64,000 bases of DNA from Oceanihabitans sp. IOP_32 (GTDB lineage: Bacteria; Bacteroidota; Bacteroidia; Flavobacteriales; Flavobacteriaceae): the NCBI RefSeq assembly GCF_009498295.1, contig NZ_CP040813.1, forward strand, positions 1 through 64,000, written 5' to 3'. Position numbers and translations under genes: made by a program. Of the stretch, positions 4,967 through 58,751 are shown in pieces (position 1 is the first letter of the stretch; each line of letters begins with the position of its first letter). The notes beneath the pieces are model-generated. The model was not told where the DNA came from. It saw only the letters and a list, made by a program, of their open reading frames with translations, and did no database searches.

Positions 4967-4967
4967 T

Positions 4968-34847: not shown

Positions 34848-34869
34848 CCAATCAACTGAACCGTTTCCA

Positions 34870-36717
34870 ATGGAAAAAAAAACATTATCAAATATTTTAG
34901 AGGGGAAAATACTCAAAATACCAGACTATCAAAGAGGTTATGCTTGGGAAGAACAACAATGGAAAGATTTTGTTCAAGATATAGATGCTTTAATTGATGA
35001 TAAAATTGTAAATCATTATACAGGCACCATTGTTATTTATCAACCTAAAGAAAAGCCTACAGAATATTATGGAATTGATAGACTGGAACTAGTTGATGTT
35101 GTAGATGGCCAACAACGATTAACAACGTCAAGTCTTTATTTATCTATTATATTGAAAGAATTAATAAAGCAAGGAGAAAAAGATTATGACACTAAATTAC
35201 CGCTTTTGTTTTCCGGAACTAAAAGTCGTCTTATTTTAAATAACGATACTTCAGATTTCTTTTTTGACCTTATCTCAAAAGGTACGACAAACGTTGCTGC
35301 AATAACGGTGCATCAAAAAAGACTTTTAGAGGCTCACAATTATCTTAAATCACATATTCAACAGCAATTAGATTCAAAAGGTACTGAAGGTGTAAGTTAT
35401 CTAAAAGATGTATTTGATGCTATTATACGCAAACTTAATTTTTCGTTTTATCCTATTGAAGTTGAGAGTGAAATTGGGATGACATTTGAACTAATGAATT
35501 CCAGAGGGAAAGGACTTTCAGCGTTAGAGTTATTAAAAAACTACCTGATGCATTGGGTGTATAGAAATATCACACAAGAAAACGAAAAAGAGGATGTTAC
35601 CAATACGATTAATAAATCTTGGAAAGAAGTATATACCAATATTGCAAAATGTAACGGTAGCGAAAATCAATGTTTAAGAATAGCGTGGACTTTATATCAT
35701 TCGCACACACCAAAAAACTGGAAGGGTTATAAAGGCTTTAAGGACAATGATGTTATTCCGTTAAGAGACTTTTCAATAAAAACGAAAGCAGATACCCAAC
35801 AGTTTATAAACCAGTTTACTTATGGATTAGCAGAAATTTCTATGCATTATGCTGCTATTATACAGCCTTCCAAAAGTTCACCAATTATAGACGAATTTAA
35901 ATGGTTAACTAAAATTAAAAATGCGGGTAACATAGCAAATTTTTTACCACTTATGGTAGCTACTCGTTTAGGTGTTGTTGCAGATGAAATCCCTCATGAC
36001 AAATATATTAACTTACTAAAAGCATTAGAACTATTTTCGTATCGCGTGTTTTTGTGGCAAGGGAAACGTAGTAATGCAGGACTCTCTAAATTTTACAGAT
36101 GGGCAGATGATATTTTCTCTAAAAAACATGATATTGAAGCAGTAACTGAATGGATTTTAGGTACCATTAATTGGTATTCTAATGAAAATAGCTTTAGAAA
36201 AGAACTTAAAGAAGATTTTTACGATTGGTATCATTGGAGACGATTATTACGATATACATTGTATGAATACGAACTGGATTTACTCACAGAAGAGGGAAAA
36301 GGCGCTAAACCTAAACTAGCTTGGGATGATTTAACCGATGCCACTTTTGAGCATATTTTACCACAAACACCAAAAGAGGATTCTATATGGAAACAACAAT
36401 GGACAGATGAAGACATTGAAACCTATCTACACGACATCTCAAACATTGTTTTAACCAAAGACAATTCTCATTATTTAAATTTCGAGTTTTCCAGAAAGAA
36501 GGGAGAAGCAGGAATAGGACATTGCTATGCCAATTCAGACATACGACAAGAACGTAAAATTGCAGAGTTTGCAGATTGGACACCAGAAAGCTGTAAACAA
36601 AGAAAAGATACACTTAATAAATGGATTATAGATAGATGGGGAATAGACCAACATTATAAAGTACCTAAAGAGATAGAAGATATTGAAGAGGAAGAAGAAA
36701 TTTTAGAAACTGTTTAG
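34870..36717 (+). CDS. GmrSD/BrxU-like nuclease (DUF262-DUF1524) inside the BREX operon
   Basis: A 615-residue two-domain protein. The N-terminal DUF262 domain has IPDYQRGYAWEEQQW (17-31) and the ParB/Srx-like catalytic motif VDGQQRLTT (78-86). The C-terminal DUF1524 His-Me nuclease has FEHILPQTP (H495) with DISNIVLTKDNSHYLNFEFS. This is the architecture of GmrSD and of BrxU, type IV restriction enzymes that cut modified phage DNA with NTP help. It sits between brxC and pglX, 22 bp after brxC. Both catalytic motifs are intact. Confidence 0.9.
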   Translation: MEKKTLSNILEGKILKIPDYQRGYAWEEQQWKDFVQDIDALIDDKIVNHYTGTIVIYQPKEKPTEYYGIDRLELVDVVDGQQRLTTSSLYLSIILKELIKQGEKDYDTKLPLLFSGTKSRLILNNDTSDFFFDLISKGTTNVAAITVHQKRLLEAHNYLKSHIQQQLDSKGTEGVSYLKDVFDAIIRKLNFSFYPIEVESEIGMTFELMNSRGKGLSALELLKNYLMHWVYRNITQENEKEDVTNTINKSWKEVYTNIAKCNGSENQCLRIAWTLYHSHTPKNWKGYKGFKDNDVIPLRDFSIKTKADTQQFINQFTYGLAEISMHYAAIIQPSKSSPIIDEFKWLTKIKNAGNIANFLPLMVATRLGVVADEIPHDKYINLLKALELFSYRVFLWQGKRSNAGLSKFYRWADDIFSKKHDIEAVTEWILGTINWYSNENSFRKELKEDFYDWYHWRRLLRYTLYEYELDLLTEEGKGAKPKLAWDDLTDATFEHILPQTPKEDSIWKQQWTDEDIETYLHDISNIVLTKDNSHYLNFEFSRKKGEAGIGHCYANSDIRQERKIAEFADWTPESCKQRKDTLNKWIIDRWGIDQHYKVPKEIEDIEEEEEILETV

Positions 36718-36746
36718 CCATTACCATCAATTTAAAGAACGTATTA

Positions 36747-39700
36747 ATGAACACCAACAACCTAAAACGCTTCGCACAAGCAGCACGCTTAAAACTACTG
36801 GACCAAATTGGCGCAAAGTTAGAAAAGGTACTCACCACCGATTCTGCAGAGTTACGCGAAAAAGCCAACCAAATAAAACAGTTACAAGAAGCCATTAATA
36901 AAAGTAGTAAGCAACAAGTTATTGATACCGTTGCCTATACCTGGTTTAACCGTTTGGTAGCCCTACGCTTTATGGATGTAAACGCTTACGAACCTATTGG
37001 CATAAAAGTAGTATCGCCAGCTAGTAATGCCACTTTGCCAGAGTTATTGCAAGAAGCCAAAGCAGGTAATATATCGCAAGAGTTGCCTGTAAACCACCAA
37101 CGTATTTACCAAATACTAGATGGTACAATACCAAGTAGCAACGCCCAAAATGAAGCCTACAGAGAATTATTAGTTGGTGCTTGCAACCAGTTGCATACGG
37201 TATTTCCGTTTTTATTTGAACGTATTAACGATTATTCCGAACTACTATTACCAGACGATCTCATTTCAGAGTTTTCTATTGTAGAAGACATTAAAAATGG
37301 CATGCCACCAGAAGATTGCGAAGAAGTGGAAATTATTGGTTGGATTTATCAGTTTTATATTTCTGAAAAGAAAGATGAAGTGTTTGCAAGTAAAGCTAAA
37401 ATAAAAAAAGAAGACATACCTGCGGCAACCCAACTCTTTACACCTCGTTGGATTGTAGAATATATGGTACAAAACACAGTTGGTAAGTTGTGGTTACAAA
37501 ACAAGCCACAATCGCGATTACGTGAGCACATGCCTTATTTTATTGAGTCACCATCTGTAAAAAGTGACGATTATTTAAAAATAAATTCTGTTGAAGAGAT
37601 TACCTTATTAGACCAAGCCTGTGGCTCGGGACATATTTTAGTTTATGGCTTTGAGTTACTTTCTAAAATTTATGAAGAAGAAGGCTATAACGAAAGCGAA
37701 ATACCCAAGCTCATCATAGAAAAAAACCTCTATGGTTTTGAAATTGATGTACGTGCAGCCCAATTAGCAGGTTTAGCCTTAATGCTAAAAGCACGCAGTT
37801 ACCAACGCAGAGTCTTTAAAAAAGAAATCACCCCTAATATTTTATGTTATAAAGATTTAAAACTAACAGCGGAAGAGATAAAAGACAGTTTTTCACAAAT
37901 GGTTTTTAAAGCTACCGATGCTTTATTATTTGACCTTAACAACATGCAACAAGCTACCAATTTGGGTTCATTGATGATACCACAAACCAATAGCCAAGAA
38001 CTTACTAATATTTTAGAAGTAGTAAATAGTAAACTGAACACCAACGATATCTTTTTAAAGGAAAACTTAATCCAAATTAAAGAGGCTTTAGAGCAATTAG
38101 TGTTGTTAAGTACCAAATTCCATTGTGTAGTAGATAACCCCCCTTATATGGGTGGTGGCAATATGAATAAAGCATTGGGCGACTTTGTAAAAGTGTTTTA
38201 TCCAGACAGTAAAGCCGATTTAATGGCGTGTTTTATGGAAGCTGGTTTAAAAGCTTTAAAACCTAAAGGCTTTTTAGGGATGATTAACCAACACTCATGG
38301 ATGTTTTTAAGCAGTTATGAAAAACTGCGAAAAAAACTGATAAAAAATACTTTTTTTGATACGCTACTGCATTTAGGGTCTCGCACCTTCCCAGAAATTG
38401 GTGGCGAAGTCGTGCAAAATGCTTCGTTTACGTTTTGGAACACAACAGCAGATGAAAAAGGAAGTTATTTGCGTTTAGTAGACGAAAATACGACTGAACT
38501 TAAACGTAACAAAACCCTTCAAGCTATTCAAGATTTTGATTGTAGTTGGTTTTATAGGTCAGATCAAAGTGATTTTAATAAAATACCAGGAAATCAAATA
38601 GCTTATTGGTTGAAAACGAAATCTTTTCAGATTTTTGAAAACGAGTTAATGGGTGTGCAAACCACTCTATTTCAGGGTATAATTACAGGTAAAAATGACG
38701 AAGCCATTAGGTTATGGAGTGAAATTGAAAATAATAAATTTTCTTGTGAATTAGAAGATATTAATGAATTCAATGAATTAAAATATTGGGTGCCTTATAA
38801 TAAAGGAGGTCTCTCTAAAAAATGGTATGGTAATCTTGAATTAGTTATTAACTTCTCTCAAAAAGGACGGGATTTTACTCGAGGAAAACATCAATTCTAT
38901 AGATATTTTTTCAAGCCATGTTTTTCGTGGAATTACATTGGTTCAAATACGCCTATGGCTAGATATTACTATGGAAATACTATTTGGGATGTTCATGGTT
39001 CTAGTGGTTTTATGAAAGAAAATGACAAACTATTATATAGAATGGCTTTAATAAATTCCAAAGTAGGAAAATACCTTTTAAATATTATCAACCCAACAAT
39101 TAGTTTTCAGGTAGAAAACATTGCCGCAATTCCAATAATAGAGTCTGATAAAAGCAATTTAGAATTAATTCAGAATAATATTTCAAATTCTAGTGTTGAA
39201 TGGAATTCAAGGGAAACCGCTTGGGACTTTAAACAAAATGAACTCATCCGTATCAATGGTCAAGACACCTCGGCTTCGCTCGGCACAGGCCTAGAAGAAG
39301 CTTATGATAGTTATTGCCACTACTGGCAAAATAAGTTTTTTGAGTTGCACAAAAATGAAGAAGAACTCAACAAACAGTTTATAGACATTTACGGCTTACA
39401 AGACGAGTTAACACCAGACGTACTGTTAGAAGATATTACCATTTTAAAAGAAGAAACCAGCATAGTCAACAACCAATTGGTATTTAATGCCAAAGAGGTA
39501 TTACAACAATTTGTAAGTTATGCAGTGGGTTGTATGTTTGGGCGTTACAGTTTAGATAAACCAGGTTTAATCCTCGCCAATCAAGGCGAAACTTTGGAGG
39601 ACTATCTTAAAGCTGTCACACTGAGCGCAGTCGAAGTGTCTTTCCTTCCCGATGATGATAATATTATACCAATCCTAGACAACGAATGGTTTGAAGACGA

Positions 39701-40277
39701 TATCGTAGGACGTTTTTACGAGTTCTTAAAAGTCACCTTTGGGAAGGCCAATTTTGAGAAAAATCTCGCTTTTGTAGAAGAGTGTTTGGGTAAAGACATC
39801 CGTAAATACTTCTTAAAAGACTTTTATACAGACCATGTAAAACGCTATAAAAAACGTCCTATTTATTGGATGTTTTCTTCGCCATCAGGTGCGTTTAACG
39901 TGCTTATTTATATGCACCGCTACACACCAGATACGCTTAACCAAATACTAAACGGCTACCTAAAAGACTACCGCGAAAAACTAACAGCAGAATTAGACCG
40001 TCAAGCCCACCTTAAAAATGTGGGAACCGCCAGAGAGCAAACCCTTGCTACCAGAGAAGAAGACCGCATCCGCAAAGTACTACTAGAATTACAAGAATAC
40101 GAGCGCGAACTCTACAAAATGGCCACAGAACGCATCAGCATCGATTTAGATGATGGCGTATTGGTTAATTACAACAAGTTTGGTAAGATTATTAAAGAAG
40201 TAAAAGGCCTTAACGATAAAAAAGCCAAAGACAAAGTGAGAAAATTTGATTGGATAGATGTAACGGAAATAAGGTAA
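36747..40277 (+). CDS. pglX: BREX-1 adenine-specific DNA methyltransferase PglX
   Basis: An 1176-residue N6-adenine methyltransferase that marks host DNA so BREX spares it. SAM motif I is LLDQACGSGHIL (about 287-298), motif IV is DNPPYMGGG (463-471), and FTPRWIVEYMVQN precedes motif I. The C-terminal part (about 600-1176) carries target recognition and conserved PglX sequence (YKKRPIYWMFSSPSGAF). Two short palindromic intergenic-type repeats lie within the frame near residues 840-848 and 957-965. It starts 29 bp after the GmrSD-like gene. Confidence 0.95.
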   Translation: MNTNNLKRFAQAARLKLLDQIGAKLEKVLTTDSAELREKANQIKQLQEAINKSSKQQVIDTVAYTWFNRLVALRFMDVNAYEPIGIKVVSPASNATLPELLQEAKAGNISQELPVNHQRIYQILDGTIPSSNAQNEAYRELLVGACNQLHTVFPFLFERINDYSELLLPDDLISEFSIVEDIKNGMPPEDCEEVEIIGWIYQFYISEKKDEVFASKAKIKKEDIPAATQLFTPRWIVEYMVQNTVGKLWLQNKPQSRLREHMPYFIESPSVKSDDYLKINSVEEITLLDQACGSGHILVYGFELLSKIYEEEGYNESEIPKLIIEKNLYGFEIDVRAAQLAGLALMLKARSYQRRVFKKEITPNILCYKDLKLTAEEIKDSFSQMVFKATDALLFDLNNMQQATNLGSLMIPQTNSQELTNILEVVNSKLNTNDIFLKENLIQIKEALEQLVLLSTKFHCVVDNPPYMGGGNMNKALGDFVKVFYPDSKADLMACFMEAGLKALKPKGFLGMINQHSWMFLSSYEKLRKKLIKNTFFDTLLHLGSRTFPEIGGEVVQNASFTFWNTTADEKGSYLRLVDENTTELKRNKTLQAIQDFDCSWFYRSDQSDFNKIPGNQIAYWLKTKSFQIFENELMGVQTTLFQGIITGKNDEAIRLWSEIENNKFSCELEDINEFNELKYWVPYNKGGLSKKWYGNLELVINFSQKGRDFTRGKHQFYRYFFKPCFSWNYIGSNTPMARYYYGNTIWDVHGSSGFMKENDKLLYRMALINSKVGKYLLNIINPTISFQVENIAAIPIIESDKSNLELIQNNISNSSVEWNSRETAWDFKQNELIRINGQDTSASLGTGLEEAYDSYCHYWQNKFFELHKNEEELNKQFIDIYGLQDELTPDVLLEDITILKEETSIVNNQLVFNAKEVLQQFVSYAVGCMFGRYSLDKPGLILANQGETLEDYLKAVTLSAVEVSFLPDDDNIIPILDNEWFEDDIVGRFYEFLKVTFGKANFEKNLAFVEECLGKDIRKYFLKDFYTDHVKRYKKRPIYWMFSSPSGAFNVLIYMHRYTPDTLNQILNGYLKDYREKLTAELDRQAHLKNVGTAREQTLATREEDRIRKVLLELQEYERELYKMATERISIDLDDGVLVNYNKFGKIIKEVKGLNDKKAKDKVRKFDWIDVTEIR
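39264..39288 (+). repeat. Palindromic repeat inside pglX, copy 1
   Basis: GACACCTCGGCTTCGCTCGG and five following bases form a GC-rich imperfect palindrome, encoding DTSASLGT in frame. It resembles the reverse complement of the element at 39615-39640. Confidence 0.6.
39615..39640 (+). repeat. Palindromic repeat inside pglX, copy 2
   Basis: GTCACACTGAGCGCAGTCGA plus six bases, encoding VTLSAVEVS in frame, matches a very common flavobacterial intergenic palindrome. Orientation is opposite to the copy at 39264-39288. Confidence 0.7.
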
Positions 40278-40280
40278 AAA

Positions 40281-42776
40281 ATGAGTCAAAAAATACAAGA
40301 AGCATTAGAACATAAATTCAAATCGCACGATGTCATATTTTGGTATGATGAGAACAGTGAACTCAAAGAAGATTTTGAAAATTTAGTATTTAATAGTATT
40401 GAAAAAGTACATGTAAATGGCAACGAATTTGAAGTAAAACACCGCGTAACAACCAAAAAGGCTGAAGAAAAATACTTACTCTATTTTAATACCAAAAAAC
40501 CAAAAAACAACGAAAACTGGTTGTTGGATTTAGAGTTGGCTTACCATCAATTCCATACAGATCAAGAAGCCATTATATTACAAGAATTAGGGTTAGACTT
40601 TAATTTTAAAACATTAGTGGCGAAGCATCTATTGTTTTTTAAATCCAAAGAGCGTTTAGATAATTTAAAAAGCCTATTAGGTGATGGCGATAGCCATAAT
40701 GATATTCGCTATAAAATGCTGGCAGTAGTCTTTAACACGGAACACGTTAACCTAAATACCTTTATTCATGCACATGGAACCGCGTTTGCCAATGGCAACG
40801 AAAAAATGGATCGTGATCTGGAGCGTTACAATTTAGTAGATTTCTATTGGAATGAAATTAATGATAAGTTTAAGTACCAAAATAAAGCACCTAAAATTTA
40901 TGATTTCTTAATTGAAGCATTTAGCAATAGCGCCATAACAACGGAAACATCTAAATTATCAAAAGAGTCTAAATTGTTACTGTCGCTTTGGAAAGACACC
41001 ATCACTTATAGAACAGGGTTCAATACCATTTCAGAAAAAATTGCTGAAGATTTAAACATAGAGGACCAATTAAACACCATAAATCTTGAAACAATTCTAG
41101 AAGAAGATCTATTTAAATTAATAGATAAAAAAATAATTCACGAATTGGTTCATCGATTAATTGACGAAAGTATATCAAATGAGAGTATTCAAACAAGCAT
41201 TAAGTCTAGAGAAAATAAATTTTGGTATACAACTTTCGAACCCTACTACCAATGCATAGCATTTGCTTCACAATTACAGGATAAAATAAAAACCACACAA
41301 AGTATTTTTAAATCCATTACCGATGGTCTGCAAAACTATACCAATACCTATTATGAAATAGACTATTTGTATCGTAAATTCATACTATGGTATAGAAAAT
41401 CGAACCATGATAGTATTTTAGGAAGATTAGCAAATACTATTGAAAAACTATATACCAATACTTGGTTACTAAAATCTAACAACCAATGGCAAAAAGTCGT
41501 TAATAATGTTAATACTTGGCCAATTAACGAAAGTTATGCCCAACGTCAATTTTATAAGCAGCACGTAAAACCGTTTGTAGATAAGAACCAACGTGTTTTT
41601 GTGATTATTTCAGATGCGCTTCGTTACGAATGTGGCGCGGAGTTAAATAACCTTTTAGTAAAAGAAAATCGCTATGATGCTTCAATACAAGGGTTAGTGG
41701 CTTCAATACCTTCATATACACAATTAGGTATGGCGTCATTGCTTCCCAATACAGATATAAAAATTGATGAAGGTAGTGATGCAGTAAGTGTTGATGGCAT
41801 GTCGGCTTCTGGGGTTATTGGAAGAGCAAAAATTTTACAACAGAATTCAGAAGCTAGAGCGACGGCAATTAAAGCGGATGATTTTATGCAATTGAATGCC
41901 AATACAGACGGTAGAGAATTTGTAAAGCAATACGATGTTATTTATATCTATCATAATAGAATTGATAAAACAGGGGATGACAAAACTACTGAAGATAAAG
42001 TGTTTGATGCTGTTGAAGATGAATTAGACTTCTTTATGGAAATGCTAAAGAAAATTTCCAATATGAATGGTAATAACATGCTTATCACTTCAGATCATGG
42101 TTTCTTATATCAGTATCAAAATATCGATGAAAGTGATTATATAAAATTAGAAGTAAAAGGTGATGTCGTAAAATACAATAGACGCTTTGTTTTAGGCAAT
42201 GATATAACTGCTAACGACACTGTAAAACAGTTTACACAAAAACAATTAGGGCTTTCAAGTACGGGTGATGTATTAATTCCAAAATCAGTAAATAGGCTAC
42301 GTGTAAAGGGAGCGGGCTCTAAATTTGTACATGGTGGTGCGTCGTTACAAGAAATTATTATTCCTGTTATTAAGGTCAACAAAAAAAGACAAGACACCAC
42401 AACTTTTGTAGACATTGATATTATTAAATCAACAGATAAGATTACAACAAATTTATTGCCAGTATCATTTATTCAAATGACTGCGGTTAATAAAAACAGT
42501 TTAGGAAGAACTATTCGCGCCGCAATATTTGCTGAAGACAATACGATGTTAAGCGACCAATATAAATACGTATTCGATAGCGAGGATGAAAACCAAAGGC
42601 AACGTGAAGTGAAACATAGGTTTCAATTAACAGCATTGGCTAGTGGTAAATATAAAAACCAACGCGTAAAATTAGTCCTCGAAGAACCTATGGATCGTTC
42701 AAATAAATGGAAAGTATATAAAGAATATTACTATACACTTAACATATCATTTACAACTGATTTTGACGGATTTTAA
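40281..42776 (+). CDS. pglZ: BREX-1 protein PglZ, alkaline-phosphatase superfamily
   Basis: An 831-residue PglZ. The metal-binding phosphatase fold is recognised by VFVIISDALRYECGAEL (about 440-456), ASIPSYTQLGMASLLPN, and the later metal motif MLITSDHGFLYQYQ (about 593-606). The long N-terminal region (about 1-420) is helical. PglZ is one of the defining BREX proteins and may act as a nuclease or phosphatase; its substrate is not settled. It begins 3 bp after pglX. Confidence 0.95.
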   Translation: MSQKIQEALEHKFKSHDVIFWYDENSELKEDFENLVFNSIEKVHVNGNEFEVKHRVTTKKAEEKYLLYFNTKKPKNNENWLLDLELAYHQFHTDQEAIILQELGLDFNFKTLVAKHLLFFKSKERLDNLKSLLGDGDSHNDIRYKMLAVVFNTEHVNLNTFIHAHGTAFANGNEKMDRDLERYNLVDFYWNEINDKFKYQNKAPKIYDFLIEAFSNSAITTETSKLSKESKLLLSLWKDTITYRTGFNTISEKIAEDLNIEDQLNTINLETILEEDLFKLIDKKIIHELVHRLIDESISNESIQTSIKSRENKFWYTTFEPYYQCIAFASQLQDKIKTTQSIFKSITDGLQNYTNTYYEIDYLYRKFILWYRKSNHDSILGRLANTIEKLYTNTWLLKSNNQWQKVVNNVNTWPINESYAQRQFYKQHVKPFVDKNQRVFVIISDALRYECGAELNNLLVKENRYDASIQGLVASIPSYTQLGMASLLPNTDIKIDEGSDAVSVDGMSASGVIGRAKILQQNSEARATAIKADDFMQLNANTDGREFVKQYDVIYIYHNRIDKTGDDKTTEDKVFDAVEDELDFFMEMLKKISNMNGNNMLITSDHGFLYQYQNIDESDYIKLEVKGDVVKYNRRFVLGNDITANDTVKQFTQKQLGLSSTGDVLIPKSVNRLRVKGAGSKFVHGGASLQEIIIPVIKVNKKRQDTTTFVDIDIIKSTDKITTNLLPVSFIQMTAVNKNSLGRTIRAAIFAEDNTMLSDQYKYVFDSEDENQRQREVKHRFQLTALASGKYKNQRVKLVLEEPMDRSNKWKVYKEYYYTLNISFTTDFDGF

Positions 42777-42800
42777 CTAGTAACTAGTCGCTAGTAACTA
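42777..42800. repeat. Short direct repeat between pglZ and brxL
   Basis: CTAGTAACTA occurs at 42777-42786 and again at 42791-42800 in the 31-bp gap. It could be a protein-binding site or a replication-slippage product. Confidence 0.4.
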
Positions 42801-42807
42801 ATAGCTA

Positions 42808-44826
42808 ATGGATATGAAAACATTAAATGAAAAAATAAACACCCACTTCGCAGGTAAAGTAGTCCGTAAAGATCTTACTAAACTAGTTAAAGGTAATGCT
42901 ATTGTACCCACTTACGTTTTAGAATACCTATTAGGTCAATATTGTGCGACTGATGATGAAGAAACCATTATTCAAGGGGTTGAAACAGTCAAAACTATTA
43001 TAGCTAAACACTTTGTACATCGCGAGGAATCCCAAATCATAAAGTCAATGGTTCGAGAAAAAGGATCTCATAGAATTATTGATAAAGTGGCTGTGCAATT
43101 AAATGATCGTCAAGACAGATATGAGGCGTCTTTCGCTAATTTAGGACTGACTAGAATACCAATTTCAGATAGTATCATTAAAGAACATCAGAAATTATTG
43201 TCAAGTGGTGTTTGGTGTATCCTTACTTTAGGGTATTCACCTTCTGAAGAAAGAGATCACACACCTTGGTTTGTTGAAAGTTTAAAACCCATTCAAGTAT
43301 CTAATGTAGATATTGATGAATATAAAAGTACACGTAAACAGTTTTCAAAAGAAGAATGGATAGACATGCTAATGCAATCCATTGGTTTAAATCCTACTGA
43401 ATTTACATTTAGATCAAAATTATTGCAACTAACACGTTTAGTACCTTTTGTAGAAAACAATTATAATTTGATTGAATTAGGGCCAAAAGGAACTGGTAAA
43501 TCTCATATCTATTCAGAAATGTCACCACATGGAATTTTAATATCTGGTGGTGAAGTATCGAAAGCAAAATTATTTGTAAATAACAGTTCTGGTGAAATTG
43601 GTTTGGTAGGCTATTGGGATGTTGTAGCATATGATGAATTTGCAGGTAAAACAAAACGCGTAGATCGTGGTTTAGTAGACATCATGAAAAACTATATGGC
43701 AAACAAGTCATTTTCAAGAGGTACTCAAGTATATGGCGCATCCGCATCTATGGTTTTTGTGGGGAATACAGACCATTCTGTAGCTTATATGCTCAAGCAT
43801 AGTGATTTGTTCGATGCACTACCGAAAGATTACTACGACACCGCTTTTTTAGACAGAATGCATGCCTACTTACCAGGTTGGGAAGTTCAAAAATTGCGTA
43901 ACGAAATGTTTACATCGGAATATGGTTTCATAGTAGATTATCTGGCTGAAATATTAAAAAACTTAAGAAAAGAAGACCGTACGCACGATTACACGAAGTT
44001 TTTTGAATTATCCAGTACTATTACAACTAGAGATAAAACATCCATAGCAAAAACCTATGCAGGTTTAATTAAAGTCATTTATCCAGATGATGCGTATTCA
44101 GAATTGGAAGCAAAAGAAATATTAGATTTTGCAATCGAAAACAGAAAACGCGTTAAAGATCAATTGCGTAAAATGGATGAAACCTTTGAAGAAGTAGATT
44201 TTAGTTATGTGAGTAAATCTTCAGGTGAATCATTTGACATAGAAACTTTAGAAGAAATCCAATACAAACCAAAGCCAGTTGTTTCTGAAGGAAATGAAAA
44301 CCAAATGGTTTCAAATGAAAGTAGCCCTCAAATAAAAGATAAAATCCAATTAAATCCTGGTCAAAAAATCATTAGGGATAACCAAACAGGTATTTCCTAT
44401 GATAACCTGTTTGGAGCATATTTATTAAACAGTTCGGATATCAAAGTGGTGGATCCTTATGTTAGATTGCCATATCAATTGAGAAACTTAATGGAGTTTG
44501 CAAAACTAATCGCTGAAAAAAAAGAAACCGATTCAGAAGTCAAATTACACCTGGTAACAAGCAATAATGAAGATTTTATAGCGAATGTAAAAGAAGCCTT
44601 TGACCAAATGACATATTCATTAGAATCCATGGGTATTATTTTTTCCTATGAATTTGATGATTACATTCATGACAGGTCAATTACATCTGATAATGGTTGG
44701 AAAATAATCCTCGGAAGAGGCCTTGACATTTGGCAAAAAACTGGTGGTTGGTATGATATCAGTGAATATGTTCAAGAACAACGTATTTGTAAAGCTTGTG
44801 AGATTACATTTGTAAAGGAAGGATAA
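42808..44826 (+). CDS. brxL: BREX Lon-like AAA+ protein BrxL
   Basis: A 672-residue BrxL, the marker that separates type 1 BREX from other subtypes. Walker A is ELGPKGTGKSHIYSE (about 223-237) and Walker B VVAYDEFAGK (about 272-281), with VYGASASMVFVGNTD as sensor 1. The C-terminal region has the Lon-protease-like fold but appears to lack a usual Ser-Lys dyad motif. BrxL assembles into ATP-dependent rings on DNA and is needed for phage exclusion in some systems. It ends the operon. Confidence 0.93.
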   Translation: MDMKTLNEKINTHFAGKVVRKDLTKLVKGNAIVPTYVLEYLLGQYCATDDEETIIQGVETVKTIIAKHFVHREESQIIKSMVREKGSHRIIDKVAVQLNDRQDRYEASFANLGLTRIPISDSIIKEHQKLLSSGVWCILTLGYSPSEERDHTPWFVESLKPIQVSNVDIDEYKSTRKQFSKEEWIDMLMQSIGLNPTEFTFRSKLLQLTRLVPFVENNYNLIELGPKGTGKSHIYSEMSPHGILISGGEVSKAKLFVNNSSGEIGLVGYWDVVAYDEFAGKTKRVDRGLVDIMKNYMANKSFSRGTQVYGASASMVFVGNTDHSVAYMLKHSDLFDALPKDYYDTAFLDRMHAYLPGWEVQKLRNEMFTSEYGFIVDYLAEILKNLRKEDRTHDYTKFFELSSTITTRDKTSIAKTYAGLIKVIYPDDAYSELEAKEILDFAIENRKRVKDQLRKMDETFEEVDFSYVSKSSGESFDIETLEEIQYKPKPVVSEGNENQMVSNESSPQIKDKIQLNPGQKIIRDNQTGISYDNLFGAYLLNSSDIKVVDPYVRLPYQLRNLMEFAKLIAEKKETDSEVKLHLVTSNNEDFIANVKEAFDQMTYSLESMGIIFSYEFDDYIHDRSITSDNGWKIILGRGLDIWQKTGGWYDISEYVQEQRICKACEITFVKEG

Positions 44827-50734: not shown

Positions 50735-51091
50735 ATGGGAAAAGTTAGGCAAGTAATACAATACAAAAATTATTTCGAGGAGTTTTTGCTTGCTCAACCG
50801 AAAAAAGTTCAAGACAAAATATTTAAGGTCATTGAAATAATTGAAACCTATCAACATGTGCCAAAAACATACTTGGCACCAATGAAAACTCATAAAGGAT
50901 TATTTGAAGCCCGAATTAAATTAGGCTCGAATATTTGGCGAGTTTTTTGCTTCTTCGATAAAGGTAAATTAGTTATACTCTTGAACGGATTTACAAAAAA
51001 GACGCAGAAAACACCGAAAAAGGAAATTGATAAAGCTGTCCGATTAATGAAAGAGTATTACGAAGAAAAAAACCAAAAACATGGAAACTAA
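50735..51091 (+). CDS. higB: HigB/Gp49-like toxin (RelE superfamily)
   Basis: A 118-residue toxin of the HigB/phage Gp49-like group, expected to be a ribosome-dependent mRNA nuclease. It has the family core LFEARIKLGSNIWRVFCFFDKGKLVILLNGFTKKTQKTP with Arg/Lys positions typical of RelE folds, and the C-terminal helix KEIDKAVRLMKEYYEE. Toxin-first order and an 11-bp overlap with the antitoxin gene fit HigBA. Confidence 0.9.
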   Translation: MGKVRQVIQYKNYFEEFLLAQPKKVQDKIFKVIEIIETYQHVPKTYLAPMKTHKGLFEARIKLGSNIWRVFCFFDKGKLVILLNGFTKKTQKTPKKEIDKAVRLMKEYYEEKNQKHGN

Positions 51092-51371
51092 AAGCTGGAA
51101 AGACATTAAAGATAAAGTTTACGGAAAAAAAGGTACTGAACGCAGAGACGAACTTGAAAGAGATTTTGAGTCCTTTAAAATAGGTTTGCTTTTGAGAAAT
51201 GCTCGTGAGGAAAAAAATTTAACTCAACAACAACTTGGAGAATTGATTGACAAAAAACGAACTTATATTTCTCGTGTAGAAAATGATGGTAGCAATTTGA
51301 CTTTAAAGACTTTATTTGATATTGTAGAAAAAGGACTTGGCGGAAAAGTAAATATTTCAATAGAAGTCTGA
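51081..51371 (+). CDS. higA: HigA-like XRE antitoxin
   Basis: A 96-residue XRE-family protein. The HTH is RNAREEKNLTQQQLGELIDKKRTYISRVENDGSNLTLKTLFDIVEKGLGG (about 38-87). An N-terminal basic helix (KDIKDKVYGKKGTERRDELERDF) probably contacts the toxin. It overlaps higB by 11 bp and probably binds the palindrome in the promoter. Confidence 0.88.
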   Translation: METKSWKDIKDKVYGKKGTERRDELERDFESFKIGLLLRNAREEKNLTQQQLGELIDKKRTYISRVENDGSNLTLKTLFDIVEKGLGGKVNISIEV

Positions 51372-51808: not shown

Positions 51809-51872
51809 CGAAAACGATGTATCTTTTTTGTGGTTTACCAGTCTACTTAATGAATAGTAAAACATTAAAGTT

Positions 51873-51986
51873 ATGAATAAATGTAAATGCACAGCATGCG
51901 ATTGCACAAAATGTAATTGCGGAAATTGTTTAGAAAATAATTGTACTTGTTCTAAATGCGAATGTGATAAATGCGATTGTTGCTAA
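51873..51986 (+). CDS. Cys-rich metallothionein-like peptide
   Basis: A 37-residue peptide starting MNKCKCTACDCTKCNC with 14 Cys, arranged almost entirely as CxC and CxxC pairs, plus Lys, Asp, Asn and Thr. It has no other hydrophobic core. The composition is that of a metallothionein, which chelates Cu, Zn or Cd through cysteine thiolates. It is followed at once by its own terminator and then by a SigZ-like sigma factor gene whose product also has a Cys-rich end. The role is inferred from composition. Confidence 0.75.
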   Translation: MNKCKCTACDCTKCNCGNCLENNCTCSKCECDKCDCC

Positions 51987-51993
51987 ATATTTT

Positions 51994-52025
51994 AAAGGTT
52001 AGTTTTTAAACTAACCTTTTTATTT
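51994..52025 (+). terminator. Terminator of the Cys-rich peptide gene
   Basis: AAAGGTTAGTTT / AAACTAACCTTT stem (12 bp, 2-nt loop) with a T-rich tail, ending just before the sigma factor start. Confidence 0.85.
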
Positions 52026-52035
52026 ATTTTTGAAT

Positions 52036-52563
52036 ATGGAAACACAAAAAATATGGGACAATTTTAATGATGAACTGTATTTCTTCATTCTAAAAAAGGT
52101 AAAAGACCAAGACAAGGCTAAGGATATTTTTCAAAATACATTCTTAAAAATTCATAAGCATTTAACTAACCTCGAAAAGGAAGAAAAAGCAAGAGCATGG
52201 ATTTTTCAAATTGCTCGTAACGAGATCTTTAACTACTTCAATAAAGAATCTGTTTATGTAGAGCAGTTGAGTGTGAATAAAGAAATTCCTTCCGAAAAAT
52301 ATGTGCGAATATGTTGTTTTGATAGATTTATAAATGATTTGCCCGAAATTTATAAACAAGTAATTGAATTGACTTATATTAAAGGACAAAAGCAAAAAGA
52401 TGTTGCAAAGGAATTAGAAATAAGTCTTGAAAATGTAAAAGTGAGAATTAAAAGGGCAAAAGATATTTTAAAGAAAAAATTTAACGAATGTTGCAAATAT
52501 GAGTTCGATAAAAACGGTAAATTAACAGGAAAAGCGCATTGTTCTATATGCGAAGCTAACTAA
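52036..52563 (+). CDS. sigZ: ECF sigma factor, SigZ-like
   Basis: A protein of about 175 residues. Sigma region 2 (KVKDQDKAKDIFQNTFLKIHKHL, then ARAWIFQIARNEIFNYF) and region 4 (LPEIYKQVIELTYIKGQKQKDVAKELEISLENVKVRIKRAKDIL) are clear. The C-terminal tail CCKYEFDKNGKLTGKAHCSIC carries paired Cys, as in SigZ proteins, and may sense metal or redox state. I choose ATG 52036 over a TTG two codons upstream. It may control the Cys-rich peptide gene just before it. Confidence 0.88.
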   Translation: METQKIWDNFNDELYFFILKKVKDQDKAKDIFQNTFLKIHKHLTNLEKEEKARAWIFQIARNEIFNYFNKESVYVEQLSVNKEIPSEKYVRICCFDRFINDLPEIYKQVIELTYIKGQKQKDVAKELEISLENVKVRIKRAKDILKKKFNECCKYEFDKNGKLTGKAHCSICEAN

Positions 52564-53354: not shown

Positions 53355-54278
53355 TCATTTTTGACTAGAATATTGATTTATCCAAGCAAAATTTTCATTG
53401 ATAATCTTGCTTTTATTTGTTTTCAAAAATTCAAGATATGCAACAGCAGTGGGCGACAGTTTCTTTGATTTCAGCCATATAAGCTGCCATTTTGTAACTA
53501 TTGGCAGGCCTTTTAATGGAATAATATCCAGTTCATGATTATGTAATTCATTTTTCAAACCAATTAAAGGCATAATTGAAAATCCCAAACCAGCAATTAC
53601 AGCCTGTTTCACAGCCTCATTTGAGGTTAGCTCCATTTTCTTTCTTACTGGATAATTGTTTTCTGAGACTACTTGTTCCATCGTATTTCGTGTTGCAGAA
53701 CCTTCTTCACGATATATTAAGGGTAGTTTTTCAAAATCTTTTTTCTTAAAAGTTTTATTCGATTTACTACCAATCAAAAAAAGTTGATTATCCATTAATT
53801 CTATCGAAAATACATCAAGTGTTTTTGGTACCACAGAAACCAACGCAAAATCAACTTCATTAAGTTCCAGGCTCCTTACTACCTTGGTTTTGTTTGTGAC
53901 ATCCATTACCAAATCAACACCTTCGTGCTCCCTCATAAAGCCAGATAAAAAATAAGGCATCACATATTTGCCTGTAGACGCTATCGATATTTTGAGTATC
54001 CCTGCTAATTTCCCTTGGTGAGCAAGTGTTTTATAATTAATAGCATGCACCTCTTCAATTATTTTCTTTGCAGCTTCAGCAATCTCCATTCCAAAATCAG
54101 TAACAAATAATTTTCTACCTACAATTTCAGTTAATGGAATGGAAAATTGATCTTGAAAATTTTTCAATTGAATAGATACGGCTGGTTGTGTTAAAAAAAG
54201 TTTCTCAGCTGTTTTGGTAACACTTTTACTTTCTGATATTTCTAAGAATATCTTTAATTGATGCAAGGTATAATTCAT
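53355..54278 (-). CDS. LysR-type regulator divergent from the dab operon
   Basis: A 307-residue LysR protein. The winged HTH is at the N-terminus (YTLHQLKIFLEISESKSVTKTAEKLFLTQPAVSIQLKNFQDQF). The effector-binding domain follows (about 90-295), with LKISIASTGKYVMPYFLSGF and GLGFSIMPLIGL typical of CysB/CbbR-type receptors. Divergent placement beside an inorganic-carbon transporter suggests it controls dabBA, as CbbR/CcmR-type LysR proteins do for carbon uptake genes. Confidence 0.93.
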   Translation of the reverse strand: MNYTLHQLKIFLEISESKSVTKTAEKLFLTQPAVSIQLKNFQDQFSIPLTEIVGRKLFVTDFGMEIAEAAKKIIEEVHAINYKTLAHQGKLAGILKISIASTGKYVMPYFLSGFMREHEGVDLVMDVTNKTKVVRSLELNEVDFALVSVVPKTLDVFSIELMDNQLFLIGSKSNKTFKKKDFEKLPLIYREEGSATRNTMEQVVSENNYPVRKKMELTSNEAVKQAVIAGLGFSIMPLIGLKNELHNHELDIIPLKGLPIVTKWQLIWLKSKKLSPTAVAYLEFLKTNKSKIINENFAWINQYSSQK

Positions 54279-54302
54279 AAAATATTTTAATGTAAATCAT
54301 TG

Positions 54303-54310
54303 CAAATGTA
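54303..54310 (-). promoter_or_regulatory. -7 element of the LysR gene
   Basis: The reverse strand reads TACATTTG (TAnnTTTG) 25 bases before the ATG. GTAAATCATT occurs at 54292-54301 and 54349-54358, on both sides of the element, a possible LysR site pair. Confidence 0.45.
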
Positions 54311-54452
54311 AATAAAAATTTATGGTTAAGTTTTTGAAACTTTGCGTCGTAAATCATTAAACGGCATATCCGTTTTTCGTCATACCACGAAAAAATCTAT
54401 GCTCGTCTGCAAAATCAGCGAGAAAACAAATAGTAGATACGGGAGAATTATC

Positions 54453-54479
54453 CCGCGGATTACGCAGGTTTACGCGGAA
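54453..54479. repeat. Short intergenic repeat with CCGCG/CGCGG ends
   Basis: CCGCGGATTACGCAGGTTTA and the following CGCGG form an imperfect palindrome of a type recurrent in Bacteroidota. It lies between LysR and the small gene at 54585. Confidence 0.55.
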
Positions 54480-54584
54480 TAAAAATAAATATTTGTTTTC
54501 GTGATTGTGTACAGTTGTCATCATAAGTTACTAATTTATAGGTTTATGACATTTAGTGGACGATCAATCATTAAAATTTAAAAT

Positions 54585-54834
54585 ATGGAAATCAAAATAA
54601 GAACTCAAATTGGAAATCAGGTACATACAGTTCAGTTGGTGGATGGTGAATTCTCTCCATCACAAGCAAATGATGTCATTTCATCACTCATCAACCAAAA
54701 AAATCAATTATTATAAATTAAAAGGACTTCAAAACTGGGAAAGAAATCACAAATATGATGAAGAACCCTTAAGAAATCAAATTAAAGAATTAGAGGAAGC
54801 TATGAAACAAACCAAAGATTTTATGACGGAATAA
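54585..54834 (+). pseudogene. Small gene with a +1 frameshift in an A7 run, ahead of dabB
   Basis: The 5' frame starts MEIKIRTQIGNQVHTVQLVDG and stops at 54716 after 43 residues. The 3' frame continues YYKLKGLQNWERNHKYDEEP and ends at 54834 with a coiled-coil-like tail. Removing one A from the run of seven at about 54695-54701 joins them into an 82-residue protein. It is a true mutation, an assembly error or slippage control. Position directly before dabB suggests a helper of that transporter; no family is recognised. Confidence 0.65.
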
Positions 54835-54921
54835 AAAAATGGTGGAAAAAACGTAAAAGTTGACGAAATATAAAAATCACAGTCTTAGAATAATTATTCA
54901 AAATACACACCTATACACAAT

Positions 54922-56397
54922 ATGGCATTAACTAACGAACTACCCCAAAATCAATCAAACCAAAGGGAAGAGCATAAAATCCCCTTAATAGCTGCACTGG
55001 CAACTCCCCTCTTATGGCTCTTATTTTTTTGCTCAGTAGGCTTGCTCATTTTTCATCAAGTCAATAATACACAATGGAATTTTAATGATAGTTTCCGAAT
55101 AAACGGATTTACACTCCTCATTTGGATAACTGTAACTTTCTTTAGCGCTGTTGTTAGCAGTTATTCGAAGAATTACTTAAAAGGTTTTAAGTATCACAGA
55201 AGATTTACAGCACTTAGTTTAAGTTTTACGTTATCGGTTATGCTTTTTGTGATGTCCAATCATATTGCTCCATTTTTAATTTCTTGGTTATTAATGGGCT
55301 TTTTTATGGCACGATTGATTGGAGTAAACTCTGATTGGGGTGAAGCTAAAGAAGCATCAAGATTAGCTCAGAAATATTTTTTTGCTGGTACAGCTTTATT
55401 GAGTATTGGAGTTTTAACACTTTCCTTTTATAGCAATCTTTTTACCATTACTGAACTGGTTGAAAATATCGAAAAAATACCTTTTTACATTGTTATTATT
55501 GCTGCATTCTGTATTATAACTGCAGCCATTATACAATCTGCTATGTACCCATTTCATCGCTGGTTGCTTTCAGCCATGACAGCCCCAACTCCAGCATCTG
55601 CACTTATGCACGCAGGTTTTGTAAATGGTGCTGGTATTTTGCTTACCATTTTGTCTGCTGTTTTATTAACATCGAATACGCTAACATTAATTTTTATCAT
55701 TGGAGGTCTCACTGCTATTATTGCTCAATTTACAAAACTGCTTCAGGTAAATGTGAAACAAAAACTTGCTTGTTCAACTATTGCTCAAATGGGTTTTATG
55801 ATTATGCAATGTGGTTTAGGTTTTTTTAATGCAGCAGTAGCTCATTTGATTTTGCATGGGTTTTATAAAGCCTATTTGTTTTTATCATCAGGAGAAGAAA
55901 TTGCTCATACTGCTCCTAAAAAACTAGAGAAAATAAAAATAAAACCTTTTCAAGCTATTGTTGTACTAATATCTGGTTCGGCTGGGGCCATTTTATTTGC
56001 AATACTCACGGGTAAAACAAATATAAATGACACCAGCGTTTTTCTTACTTTAATTGTTGCCATCACAGTAGGTCAGGTTGCTTACAATATCGTGAAGGAA
56101 AAGAGTTTATCCAATATTCAAAAGGCGATTGTTCCCATTGTTCTTTCTGTTTCTGGAATAGGTGCGTATGCTTTACTCTACAATGGCGTGACTAATTTAA
56201 TGTCAGACATGCCTTTTTCTGAAGTTCCTCAGCCACTTTCTGTATTGCAAATCGTATTTGGTGTAGTGTTTCTATTAGGCTTTTTTATTATGAAACTTGG
56301 GCTTTACAAAAAAATACCATGGCTCTATGTAAAACTGCTGAATTTATCTCAACCCAATAAAAAAACAATTCTTACCTATAAAATTTCAAACAAATGA
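54922..56397 (+). CDS. dabB: DabB, membrane subunit of the inorganic-carbon transporter
   Basis: A 491-residue polytopic protein related to NADH dehydrogenase subunit L/MrpA-type antiporters. About 13 helices are present, with the ion-channel signature SAMYPFHRWLLSAMTAPTPASALMHAGFVNGAG (about 210-242) containing conserved His and Lys/Arg. In the DAB complex it carries protons and energises DabA. The stop overlaps the dabA start (ATGA). There are no other complex I genes here, which supports DabB over NuoL. Confidence 0.93.
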   Translation: MALTNELPQNQSNQREEHKIPLIAALATPLLWLLFFCSVGLLIFHQVNNTQWNFNDSFRINGFTLLIWITVTFFSAVVSSYSKNYLKGFKYHRRFTALSLSFTLSVMLFVMSNHIAPFLISWLLMGFFMARLIGVNSDWGEAKEASRLAQKYFFAGTALLSIGVLTLSFYSNLFTITELVENIEKIPFYIVIIAAFCIITAAIIQSAMYPFHRWLLSAMTAPTPASALMHAGFVNGAGILLTILSAVLLTSNTLTLIFIIGGLTAIIAQFTKLLQVNVKQKLACSTIAQMGFMIMQCGLGFFNAAVAHLILHGFYKAYLFLSSGEEIAHTAPKKLEKIKIKPFQAIVVLISGSAGAILFAILTGKTNINDTSVFLTLIVAITVGQVAYNIVKEKSLSNIQKAIVPIVLSVSGIGAYALLYNGVTNLMSDMPFSEVPQPLSVLQIVFGVVFLLGFFIMKLGLYKKIPWLYVKLLNLSQPNKKTILTYKISNK

Positions 56398-58751
56398 TTA
56401 TGGAAAACTTCCAAAACAAAATCCAAAAAGCTTCTCAGGTCATTGGTACATCTTGGCCCCTATACTCCTTTGTAACCTCAAACCCATTAGCTGGATTCGA
56501 AAATAATCACTTTAAAGAAGCAATACAAAGTGTTAAAGAAACAAGAGGTGCTCGTGTTTTTCCCAAAGCTCAGGTGTATCGAAAAGCTTATCAAGAGGGA
56601 AGAATAAATGAAAAAGAATTAATTGACCTGCTTTCGGCAAACAACTTATTTGAAACTCCAGAACAATATCTTCAAAAGCTAGAATCTGTTCAAGAAATAA
56701 AAACCCAAAATTACGATTCAAAATTGGATCGGGTTATGGTAAAATGGTTGATGGCATTTATAGACGAAGGACTTGCAGAATGGGAAATGCCATTTAAGGA
56801 AGATGGGTTTTATAGTTCTTGGAGAATATTGGCAATTTATGATGAAGACATCAAGGTTAAATCATTATCGAAACTACCAAAAACAGCTACCGAAGTTTTT
56901 TCAAAAATCTTAATAAAATACTCAGATAAAGAGCAACTGGCCATAATGGAGCATCATATAAATGCTTTACCAGGTTGGGCAGGTTATATTAAACACAGGG
57001 AAGAAACTAATTCGCCTTGGCAACAAAAATATAGCATCACACTAGCCGATTACCTGGCTGTACGTTTATGGCTTGCCAATCATTTTAAAGTGTCACTTCT
57101 CCCTGATACAAATGACAAGCAGGCTCCTGATCCAAACGCAAAAATCCAATACCTATTTTTAAAAGCTTGGGAAAAGAGTTGGCAAAACAAGTTGATTTCC
57201 GAATTAAAAAATCAATCAAACAACATTTCTAATACTCCAAAAATACCTGATGCTCAAATGGTATTTTGTATCGACACTCGCTCAGAATTAATCCGAAGAA
57301 ATGTTGAATCTAAAGGTAATTATGAAACTTTTGGTTATGCTGGTTTTTTTGGAATTGCAATGGATTATAAAAATTTGGAAAACGGATTATCCCGAAAGTC
57401 GTGTCCTCCTATTGTCCCTTCTGCCTATCAAGTTTCAGAAATAGCTCAAGAAAACAAAGAAAAACAGATTGTCCAATTTCAAAAGAAGAATGAAAGAAAA
57501 AAGTTTACCAATTATTTTCTAAAGCGGATGAAAAATATGCTTCCATCTGCATTTGGTTATGTGGAAGGTTCGGGCGTGTTTTACGCCGTTTCGTTGTTAT
57601 CAAGAACGCTCTTTCCAGCACCCCTTTACAATCCAAAGCGAAATAATGAATTATCTCACGAGAATATTACTAAACCCAAAATATGCCATACTCATAAAGA
57701 CGAAATCGATACGATTGACATTACATTAGAGGAAAAAACAACCATTGTAAAATCGGCTTTTGACCTTATGGGTTGGAATCAGTTCGCTCCCTTAGTCGTT
57801 TTTGTTGGACATGGAAGCCACTCGGCTAACAACCCATTTGCTTCAAGTTTAGATTGTGGCGCTTGTGCTGCTAGTCCGGGAAGACACAACGCTCGGATGC
57901 TTGCGAGGTTAGCCAATCAGCTTGAGGTTAGAAAAGCGTTAAAAGAAAAACACAAGATTACTATTCCCGAGACAACCCTTTTTCTTGGAGCAGAACACAA
58001 TACCACAACAGACGAGATTGTTTTGTTTGATTCAGAATTACCAAGTTCACATAATGCCCAAATATCAAACTTGAAAAAAGATTTACAGCGAGCTCAAGAA
58101 ACAGCAACACAAGAGCGTCTTGGAATTTCTAAAAATGGTATTTTGGCAGTTCATAAAAAAACAAACACTTGGTCAGAAACCAGACCAGAATGGGGTTTAG
58201 CAAAAAATGCTGGTTTTATTGTTGCCCCACGCTCACTCACTAAAGATATGAACCTGAATGGACATTGCTTTCTGCATTCCTACAATTGGGAATTGGATAA
58301 AAATGGGAAAGCTTTAGAGGGTATAATGCAGGGTCCAATGGTCGTTACCCAATGGATTAACAACCATTATTATTTTTCTACAGTTGATAATGAAACATTT
58401 GGAGGAGGATCTAAAATAAGCCACAATATTACTGGAAAGTTTGGTGTCGTTCAAGGTAATGGTGGTGATTTAAAAATTGGGCTTCCTTTACAATCTGTAA
58501 ATGAAACAGACGAAAAGTTTTATCACCAACCATTACGGTTATCAGTTTTAATCCAAGCTCCAAAAGAAAACATTCAGGAAATTCTTCTTAAAAATGACAA
58601 CCTCAAAACCTTATTGGACAACGAATGGATTTACCTTTTGGTAATGGATCCTACTTCAGAAAATAACGTAAGTCGATATCAAAAAGGAATGAAATGGGTA
58701 GAAACAAACAAAATGCAACATTTTTCAGAAAATGTTTTAGTAAAAAATTAA
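56394..58751 (+). CDS. dabA: DabA, carbonic-anhydrase-like subunit (DUF2309)
   Basis: A 785-residue DUF2309 protein. With DabB it hydrates CO2 to bicarbonate in the cytoplasm in one direction, raising dissolved inorganic carbon. The zinc-site residues are visible: VFCIDTRSELIRRN supplies Cys and Asp, and FVGHGSHSANNPFASSLDCGACA supplies His and Cys. It overlaps dabB by 4 bp. The start may be the second Met, at 56400. In a probable heterotroph it would feed carboxylases rather than RuBisCO. Confidence 0.95.
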   Translation: MIMENFQNKIQKASQVIGTSWPLYSFVTSNPLAGFENNHFKEAIQSVKETRGARVFPKAQVYRKAYQEGRINEKELIDLLSANNLFETPEQYLQKLESVQEIKTQNYDSKLDRVMVKWLMAFIDEGLAEWEMPFKEDGFYSSWRILAIYDEDIKVKSLSKLPKTATEVFSKILIKYSDKEQLAIMEHHINALPGWAGYIKHREETNSPWQQKYSITLADYLAVRLWLANHFKVSLLPDTNDKQAPDPNAKIQYLFLKAWEKSWQNKLISELKNQSNNISNTPKIPDAQMVFCIDTRSELIRRNVESKGNYETFGYAGFFGIAMDYKNLENGLSRKSCPPIVPSAYQVSEIAQENKEKQIVQFQKKNERKKFTNYFLKRMKNMLPSAFGYVEGSGVFYAVSLLSRTLFPAPLYNPKRNNELSHENITKPKICHTHKDEIDTIDITLEEKTTIVKSAFDLMGWNQFAPLVVFVGHGSHSANNPFASSLDCGACAASPGRHNARMLARLANQLEVRKALKEKHKITIPETTLFLGAEHNTTTDEIVLFDSELPSSHNAQISNLKKDLQRAQETATQERLGISKNGILAVHKKTNTWSETRPEWGLAKNAGFIVAPRSLTKDMNLNGHCFLHSYNWELDKNGKALEGIMQGPMVVTQWINNHYYFSTVDNETFGGGSKISHNITGKFGVVQGNGGDLKIGLPLQSVNETDEKFYHQPLRLSVLIQAPKENIQEILLKNDNLKTLLDNEWIYLLVMDPTSENNVSRYQKGMKWVETNKMQHFSENVLVKN

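Follow-up and report, generated by a model that had tools for sequence, protein, structure and literature searches.

A conserved pair of genes for a cysteine-rich mini-protein and a SigZ-like sigma factor in Flavobacteriaceae: a putative metallothionein operon with a predicted promoter of its own

The window analysed here is the opening 64 kb of a genome assembled as one contig of 3.48 Mb. It carries on its plus strand an operon of two genes, an open reading frame for a peptide of 37 residues with 14 cysteines (type A; a second type, B, is described below) and a gene for a SigZ-like sigma factor. Its features are the following:

51819..51846, plus strand: ECF-type promoter, GTATC (51819-51823), 17 nt and GTCTAC (51841-51846), the predicted target of the SigZ-like sigma factor (motif counts)
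51851..51855, plus strand: TGAAT, match to a conserved TGAAc-like element just past the -10-like element, its role putative (column conservation)
51873..51986, plus strand: type A peptide gene, 37 aa, 14 Cys, metallothionein-like (ORF listing, homologue search, codon analysis, cysteine counts)
51994..52031, plus strand: hairpin of AAAGGTTAGTTT and AAACTAACCTTT (51994-52005 and 52008-52019), then TTATTTATTTTT; terminator-like in appearance, its role putative (shuffles)
52036..52563, plus strand: SigZ-like ECF sigma factor gene, 175 aa (family models, homologues, tree, alignment)
52312..52317, plus strand: linker Cys-Cys (C93, C94) between sigma2 and sigma4, invariant in 40/40 sigma proteins of the A clade
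52489..52551, plus strand: C-terminal cysteine site, CC (C152, C153) and CxxC (C169, C172), in 39/40 A-clade and 47/47 B sigma proteins (alignment counts; AlphaFold2)

The peptide, MNKCKCTACDCTKCNCGNCLENNCTCSKCECDKCDCC, starts at an ATG and has no histidine, and 49 nt separate its stop codon from the ATG of the sigma gene. The ORF listing gave the start of the sigma gene as a TTG at 52030; we set it at the ATG at 52036 (METQ...) because its relatives align from there. The initial annotation had described a 37-residue, 14-cysteine peptide beside a SigZ-like factor that ends in paired cysteines. ORF coordinates and family models confirmed the pair, and the sigma factor does end in CC-x15-CxxC followed by three residues.

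A Gp49/RelE-type toxin gene and then an HTH antitoxin-like gene (50735-51371, plus strand) lie directly upstream of the operon. Downstream (53355-58751) are a LysR-type regulator on the minus strand, an NDH-5-like protein and a 785-aa protein that had no NCBIfam match; the last two resemble the DabA/DabB inorganic-carbon pair. Farther away, a complete-looking BREX phage-defence locus (30189-44826, plus strand) was recognised with PADLOC models as brxA, brxB, brxC, a gene that we presume to be DUF262-like, pglX, pglZ and brxL. Since a tyrosine recombinase gene is located at 22976-24223, the BREX region may be a genomic island.

Homologues were sought in 397 Flavobacteriaceae genomes and in 345 genomes of the class, with one genome per species in both samples. 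As a single query, the window peptide was found in 22 of the 397 genomes, its own included, and two more (G217 and G353) were reached through the sigma factor, giving 24 genomes with type A. In 22 of the 24 (20 of the 22 found with the peptide query), the peptide gene was directly upstream of a SigZ-like sigma gene, while in G222 and G359 it had no adjacent sigma gene. In the class sample type A was present in 5/345 genomes, the window genome among them; G711, from outside the family, has the pair together with the promoter motif, and the copies of G452, G633 and G545 are unpaired. Among 18 named loci 17 encode a true sigma relative and all 17 of these have the peptide, the other locus (L070) being a weak 23% sigma match without it. 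Roseivirga, Brumimicrobium and Profundicola, all represented among the named loci, belong to other families according to the tree listing. Psychroflexus tropicus and Roseivirga spongicola have identical peptides and close sigma factors, which suggests transfer between lineages.

The cysteines of the peptide were highly constrained. Their number was exactly 14 in 39/39 paired A loci, and their spacing was identical in 37/39, the two deviating entries being a single locus entered twice. L069 and L087 are one and the same locus, and 38 of the 39 DNA sequences of the A peptide were distinct. Both TGT and TGC were seen at every cysteine position. Pooled over all pairs among 32 A and 34 B sequences of equal length, pN/pS was 0.20 (A) and 0.30 (B) for all codons, and 0.45 and 0.56 for the non-cysteine codons only. 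The median dN/dS was 0.12 for A and 0.20 for B, taken over unsaturated pairs only (143/496 and 242/561, respectively). As judged from these codon comparisons, the peptide is under selection at the protein level. A chance open reading frame was excluded by the matches in 22 of 397 genomes, the constant cysteine count, the varying cysteine codons and the pN/pS of 0.20. Conservation of the frame, and its presence before sigZ in other Flavobacteriaceae, were the tests named in the initial annotation, and in the sample both the frame and the linkage proved to be conserved.

The peptide has the marks of a metallothionein, being small and cysteine-rich (14 of 37 residues) with fixed CxC/CxxC spacing. 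Searches of NCBIfam and Pfam with the window peptide were empty to a threshold of E = 1, as was a PDB search to E = 10; the Pfam and NCBIfam scans of two more A and two B peptides were likewise empty to E = 10. The models searched include the bacterial metallothionein families of Pfam and NCBIfam, so the initial view that the peptide is unlike SmtA stands as far as tested, for the window peptide and these four relatives. A tblastn search of plasmids with the peptide found no match, although the low-complexity filter of BLAST may mask such a sequence.

The best family models for the sigma factor were NF007215 (143.8 bits, cut-off 212) and TIGR02959 (140.8 bits, cut-off 168.65). We call it SigZ-like because the SigZ models score best and yet stay below both curated cut-offs. 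Its place among the ECF factors is clear: Sigma70_r2 and Sigma70_r4_2 scored above their gathering scores, and TIGR02937 reached 70.1 bits against a cut-off of 42.9. The search for the sigma factor found it in 99 of the 397 Flavobacteriaceae genomes. Of the 105 matches, all but six weak ones were read (99 loci); two of the six genomes left aside (G119 and G057) were later found to have paired type B loci. In the 99 loci the cysteine tail and the peptide occurred together in 68 and were both missing in 28, while one locus had the tail only and two had the peptide without a matched tail (one of them degenerate, the other cut by a contig end). The tail, CC...CxxC, was incomplete only in L081 of the A clade, which lacks the last cysteine. 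In the linker the B sigma factors have HxxxxC (47/47), in the form H(T/S)xx(D/E)C in 38 of them. For the alignments (A1 and A2) 28 and 30 sequences were selected, whereas the tallies of motif and cysteines cover the loci.

In the sigma tree, the A sequences together with one A-clade sigma factor that has no peptide formed a clade (100/100), and so did the B sequences (98/94). However, the branch joining A with B was weak (70/13), and a common origin of the two is weakly supported by this tree. AlphaFold2 models of 18 sequences predicted the tail as a beta hairpin with a short helix, at low to moderate confidence (pLDDT about 50-64, pTM 0.42). Furthermore, a search of plasmids for the sigma factor matched 113 records, of which three were read. 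A SigZ from a Vibrio plasmid, with a CxxC end after a CC, and one from a Priestia plasmid, with a linker cysteine and CC, both had no cysteine-rich ORF within 3 kb, indicating that tail and peptide are uncoupled outside Bacteroidota, at least in these records.

The type B mini-protein, of 33 residues with 11 cysteines, precedes SigZ relatives that are about 30-40% identical to the window sigma factor. Its profile found 67 of the 397 family genomes, with the sigma gene adjacent in 51 and absent beside it in 16. All 48 paired B loci counted had exactly 11 cysteines with identical spacing. No genome had both types (24 with A and 67 with B, so that either was present in 91/397), for which the chance would be about 0.01 if genomes were independent, which kinship makes them not. 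There are thus two parallel forms, a 14-cysteine peptide with a CC-linker sigma factor and an 11-cysteine peptide with an HxxxxC-linker sigma factor.

Twenty-one peptides in total had no adjacent sigma gene. Their genomes contained 36 sigma-like matches at E <= 1e-10 (best E 1.6e-15), and the CC...CxxC tail was in none of the 20 matches whose ends were read. Completeness of 90% or more together with contamination of 5% or less was reached by only 8 of the 21 genomes (13 were below 90% or above 5%), so loss of the sigma factor from the whole genome is not proven for all 21. Some of the copies were decayed or odd: L256 has 8 cysteines, L268 has an in-frame stop, L258, L263 and L223 have one cysteine fewer, the start of L269 and L270 is doubtful, and in L222 the contig ends 505 nt downstream. 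An Lrp-type gene, identified by eye, follows L256, L257 and L263 as at many paired B loci, as if the sigma gene had been lost in place; L256 has also lost three cysteines. As seen by eye, the unpaired type A copy L224 (G545, about 4250-5950) is flanked by peroxiredoxin-like and ZIP-type transporter-like genes, and the unpaired type B copies L264 and L265, from two genomes of one genus, precede beta-carbonic anhydrase-like and SulP transporter-like genes. A decayed pair was also observed in G188 (L153 and L293), where stop codons interrupt the sigma gene and the type B peptide is matched only in part, while the promoter motif is still present; this genome counts as having neither in the tail and peptide tally and as a paired B locus in the promoter tally.

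The paired peptide genes are preceded by an element of two blocks at a constant distance, GTATC-17 nt-GTCT for A and GCATC-17 nt-GTCT for B, mostly 24-27 nt before the ATG. The strict motif was present at 36/40 paired A and 46/51 paired B loci, missing at L060, L080, L089, L090, L096, L111, L117, L143 and L152. A relaxed motif with small variants, defined after inspection of the paired loci, was present at 40/40 and 51/51, and in 5 of 1820 shuffled upstream regions. In G119 it lay farther from the ATG than at other loci. In contrast, none of the 21 unpaired peptides had the motif, strict or relaxed, within about 160 nt upstream. Otherwise little was conserved upstream of the peptide; a TGAAc-like element a few bases past GTCTAC, in both peptide types, and an A-rich stretch followed the motif more weakly. 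The TGAAc-like element perhaps marks the region around the transcription start. Because the motif tracks the presence of the sigma factor and differs between its subtypes, we take it to be the promoter of the SigZ-like sigma factor, which on these counts very probably drives its own operon. The functional link between sigZ and the peptide that had been suspected from their adjacency is made much stronger by this result. The sigma factor is, however, dispensable for the peptide, since at least some type B peptides sit under other promoters.

Few other motif sites were found, and the detectable regulon is thus essentially the operon itself. The exact A motif had 25 sites in 25 genomes (3 for the reversed-pattern control), 18 of them at the peptide promoter, and the remaining seven were not clearly in excess over the control of 3. 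Three of the seven (L195, L177 and L180) are overlapped by a long open frame of the other strand, and two (L183 and L187) by such frames on both strands; at L179 the long frame is on the strand of the motif itself, and an ORF begins 150 nt further along. Only L178, in G225, overlaps no long frame and has a long ORF close behind. For the B motif, 14 of the 16 sites in 25 B genomes were at the peptide promoter (control: 1 site), and as a control of spacing the type B pattern with one extra spacer base had no site in 25 genomes. With up to one mismatch the window genome had 3 motif sites against 4 reversed-control sites, and we claim no further target there because the two sites away from the peptide promoter fall within long open frames of the other strand. 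G225 differs, having a SigZ-like gene without an adjacent peptide. Its only exact site precedes, by 20 nt, the ATG start of a gene for a TonB-dependent receptor (L084, 7578-9749, minus strand) that is convergent with the sigma gene, indicating that the target of the sigma factor is not always the peptide.

The hairpin between the peptide and sigma genes was more stable than 20/20 shuffles in the window, and it beat all 20 shuffles in 27/34 A and 39/46 B regions (duplicates and regions shorter than 25 nt left out). Its 5' arms had 33 different sequences in A and 44 in B, and this retention of structure while the sequence changes suggests a functional element. A T-rich stretch followed it in 26/34 A regions but in only 25/46 B regions. 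From these comparisons the hairpin is probably a partial terminator or an mRNA stabiliser, which may reduce the transcription that continues into the sigma gene or shield the mRNA of the peptide. It is not essential, because five A loci (L067, L085, L086, L088 and L092) have no clear hairpin or no room for one.

No recurrent metal gene was found in the printed clusters of ORFs flanking 40 A and 48 B loci, and no redox gene stood out among the recurrent neighbours of paired loci. The type B loci have ordinary synteny in common; among the shared genes, as named by eye, are an Lrp-type regulator and a transporter, a pattern that vertical descent would produce.

The conserved pair, the selection on the peptide, the association of motif and sigma factor, the scarcity of other sites, the cysteines of the sigma factor and the peptides without a sigma gene were all observed by sequence comparison. 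We consider it probable that together they describe a self-contained metal-stress operon with a cysteine-sensing sigma factor, a dedicated promoter, a chelator peptide and feedback. In such an operon the linker CC and the CC...CxxC tail would be the on-board cysteine sensor of the SigZ-like factor. A thiophilic metal (or, less likely, a thiol-oxidising stress) would alter the state of these cysteines, and the sigma factor would then guide RNA polymerase to a single promoter reserved for this operon, GTATC-17 nt-GTCTAC before the peptide gene. The peptide would be made in large amounts and its 14 fixed cysteines would chelate the metal, while the leaky hairpin terminator would let a smaller amount of sigma factor be made. 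Chelation would lower the signal and close the loop. By the comparative evidence the peptide is most likely the effector, a metallothionein-like chelator, and it is the persistence of the peptide without the sigma factor that argues against its being a leader or an anti-sigma factor. The earlier picture of a chelator and a sensor-like sigma factor encoded side by side fits this evidence; its metal- or redox-binding part we infer.

Other roles for the peptide must be weighed. A short ORF just before a regulatory gene, rich in cysteine codons and with a terminator-like hairpin in between, has the look of a leader peptide, at which ribosome stalling under cysteine shortage would control the hairpin and the expression of the sigma factor by attenuation. 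However, the cysteine spacing is identical at the A and B paired loci (37/39 and 48/48), and the non-cysteine codons are constrained as well (pooled pN/pS 0.45 and 0.56). The 21 copies beside no sigma gene and the five A loci without a clear hairpin or room for it fit attenuation poorly, too. Given the protein-level selection, the fixed spacing and the 21 sigma-less copies, we rejected assignment of the peptide to the leader or attenuator class, and this explanation is very improbable. The near-obligate pairing as seen from the sigma side, and the parallel A and B subtypes of both proteins, would also be expected if the peptide bound directly to the cysteine sites of SigZ, either as a small anti-sigma factor switched by metal or redox state or as a donor of metal. 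Again the 21 peptides without a sigma gene speak against it, with all 20 of the 36 sigma-like matches that were read being tail-less, although 13 of these 21 genomes are less than 90% complete or more than 5% contaminated. In addition, the peptide matched no anti-sigma model of Pfam or NCBIfam, and the sigma gene of G225 has no adjacent peptide. We regard an anti-sigma or donor function as improbable, while direct contact of peptide and sigma factor could be a secondary role.

A third explanation changes the signal rather than the circuit: the operon would answer thiol or redox stress (peroxide, disulfide or electrophiles) and the peptide would be a sacrificial thiol buffer. The cysteines could serve thiol buffering too, and a peroxiredoxin-like gene precedes the unpaired copy in G545 (L224, by eye). 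On the other hand, the CxC/CxxC spacing is fixed, no redox gene recurs beside the paired loci, and the cysteine-tailed ECF factors described in the cited parts of the literature respond to metals, although for CorE it is the redox state of copper that counts (PMC8999054; PMC9023288; PMC3107203). We find redox stress as the signal unlikely, if less so than the two roles above. On balance we lean towards the broader proposal of a one-component, positively driven metallothionein circuit, present in two parallel Bacteroidota forms and mobile between lineages, which would give SigZ a physiological role and make the peptides two new families of bacterial metallothioneins. In that case a sigma factor that itself senses the stress would turn on a metallothionein, a logic unlike that of SmtB and RicR. 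There would be two testable families of peptides that annotation may miss because of their size, SigZ would gain a concrete functional hypothesis, and a circuit with one promoter could serve metal biosensing.

Like the peptides described here, the known bacterial metallothioneins SmtA/BmtA and mycobacterial MymT are short and very cysteine-rich, and by analogy the function may be shared. SmtA has a histidine-bearing zinc-finger part, which is absent from the 37- or 33-aa peptides. The known regulators are SmtB for smtA and RicR for mymT (PMC10141476); here, by contrast, regulation is probably by a sigma factor. For the SigZ family itself (TIGR02959 and NF007215), a linker cysteine and a CC after region 4 also occur in the Priestia and Vibrio plasmid proteins. 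However, the linker of the window factor has CC instead of a single cysteine, and the upstream cysteine-rich peptide is absent at both plasmid genes. In the cited part of a recent table of Bacillus subtilis sigma factors SigZ is given no function (PMC10141391). Titles and abstracts in the open PMC literature held no SigZ or Bacteroidota ECF sigma factor joined with a metallothionein, which is weak evidence of novelty; each part of the operon is of a known kind, and the combination did not turn up in these searches.

CorE and OrbS offer close comparisons for the sigma factor, and by analogy with them the SigZ-like factor probably senses metal itself. OrbS (ECF243), from Burkholderia cenocepacia, has a cluster of C-terminal cysteines that senses Fe(II) and forms an on-board metal sensor as proposed here. 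It differs in that it is inhibited by Fe(II) and drives ornibactin genes, and the cited part of that work mentions no peptide partner (PMC9023288). CorE is a copper-dependent ECF factor whose activity needs a linker CXC and a C-terminal cysteine-rich domain (PMC8999054; PMC3107203). CorE and CorE2 of Myxococcus xanthus (former ECF44, now ECF238) have a linker cysteine motif and a cysteine-rich C-terminal extension like the A-clade sigma factors, and they are also alike in that the cited parts of the two papers report no linked anti-sigma gene and a partial autoregulation. Among 21 factors with the CorE-type domain, counted in the cited part of one of them, four phyla were represented and Bacteroidota had none (PMC3107203). 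However, the window factor departs from CorE in both cysteine sites: the linker carries CC in place of CXC in all 40 A-clade sigma factors, and the CorE tail as described there has 38 residues and 6 cysteines, compared with about 24 residues and 4 cysteines (CC...CxxC) in another arrangement. What also sets the window factor apart from CorE is its SigZ-like sequence and its apparent target, the operon of a single cysteine-rich peptide.
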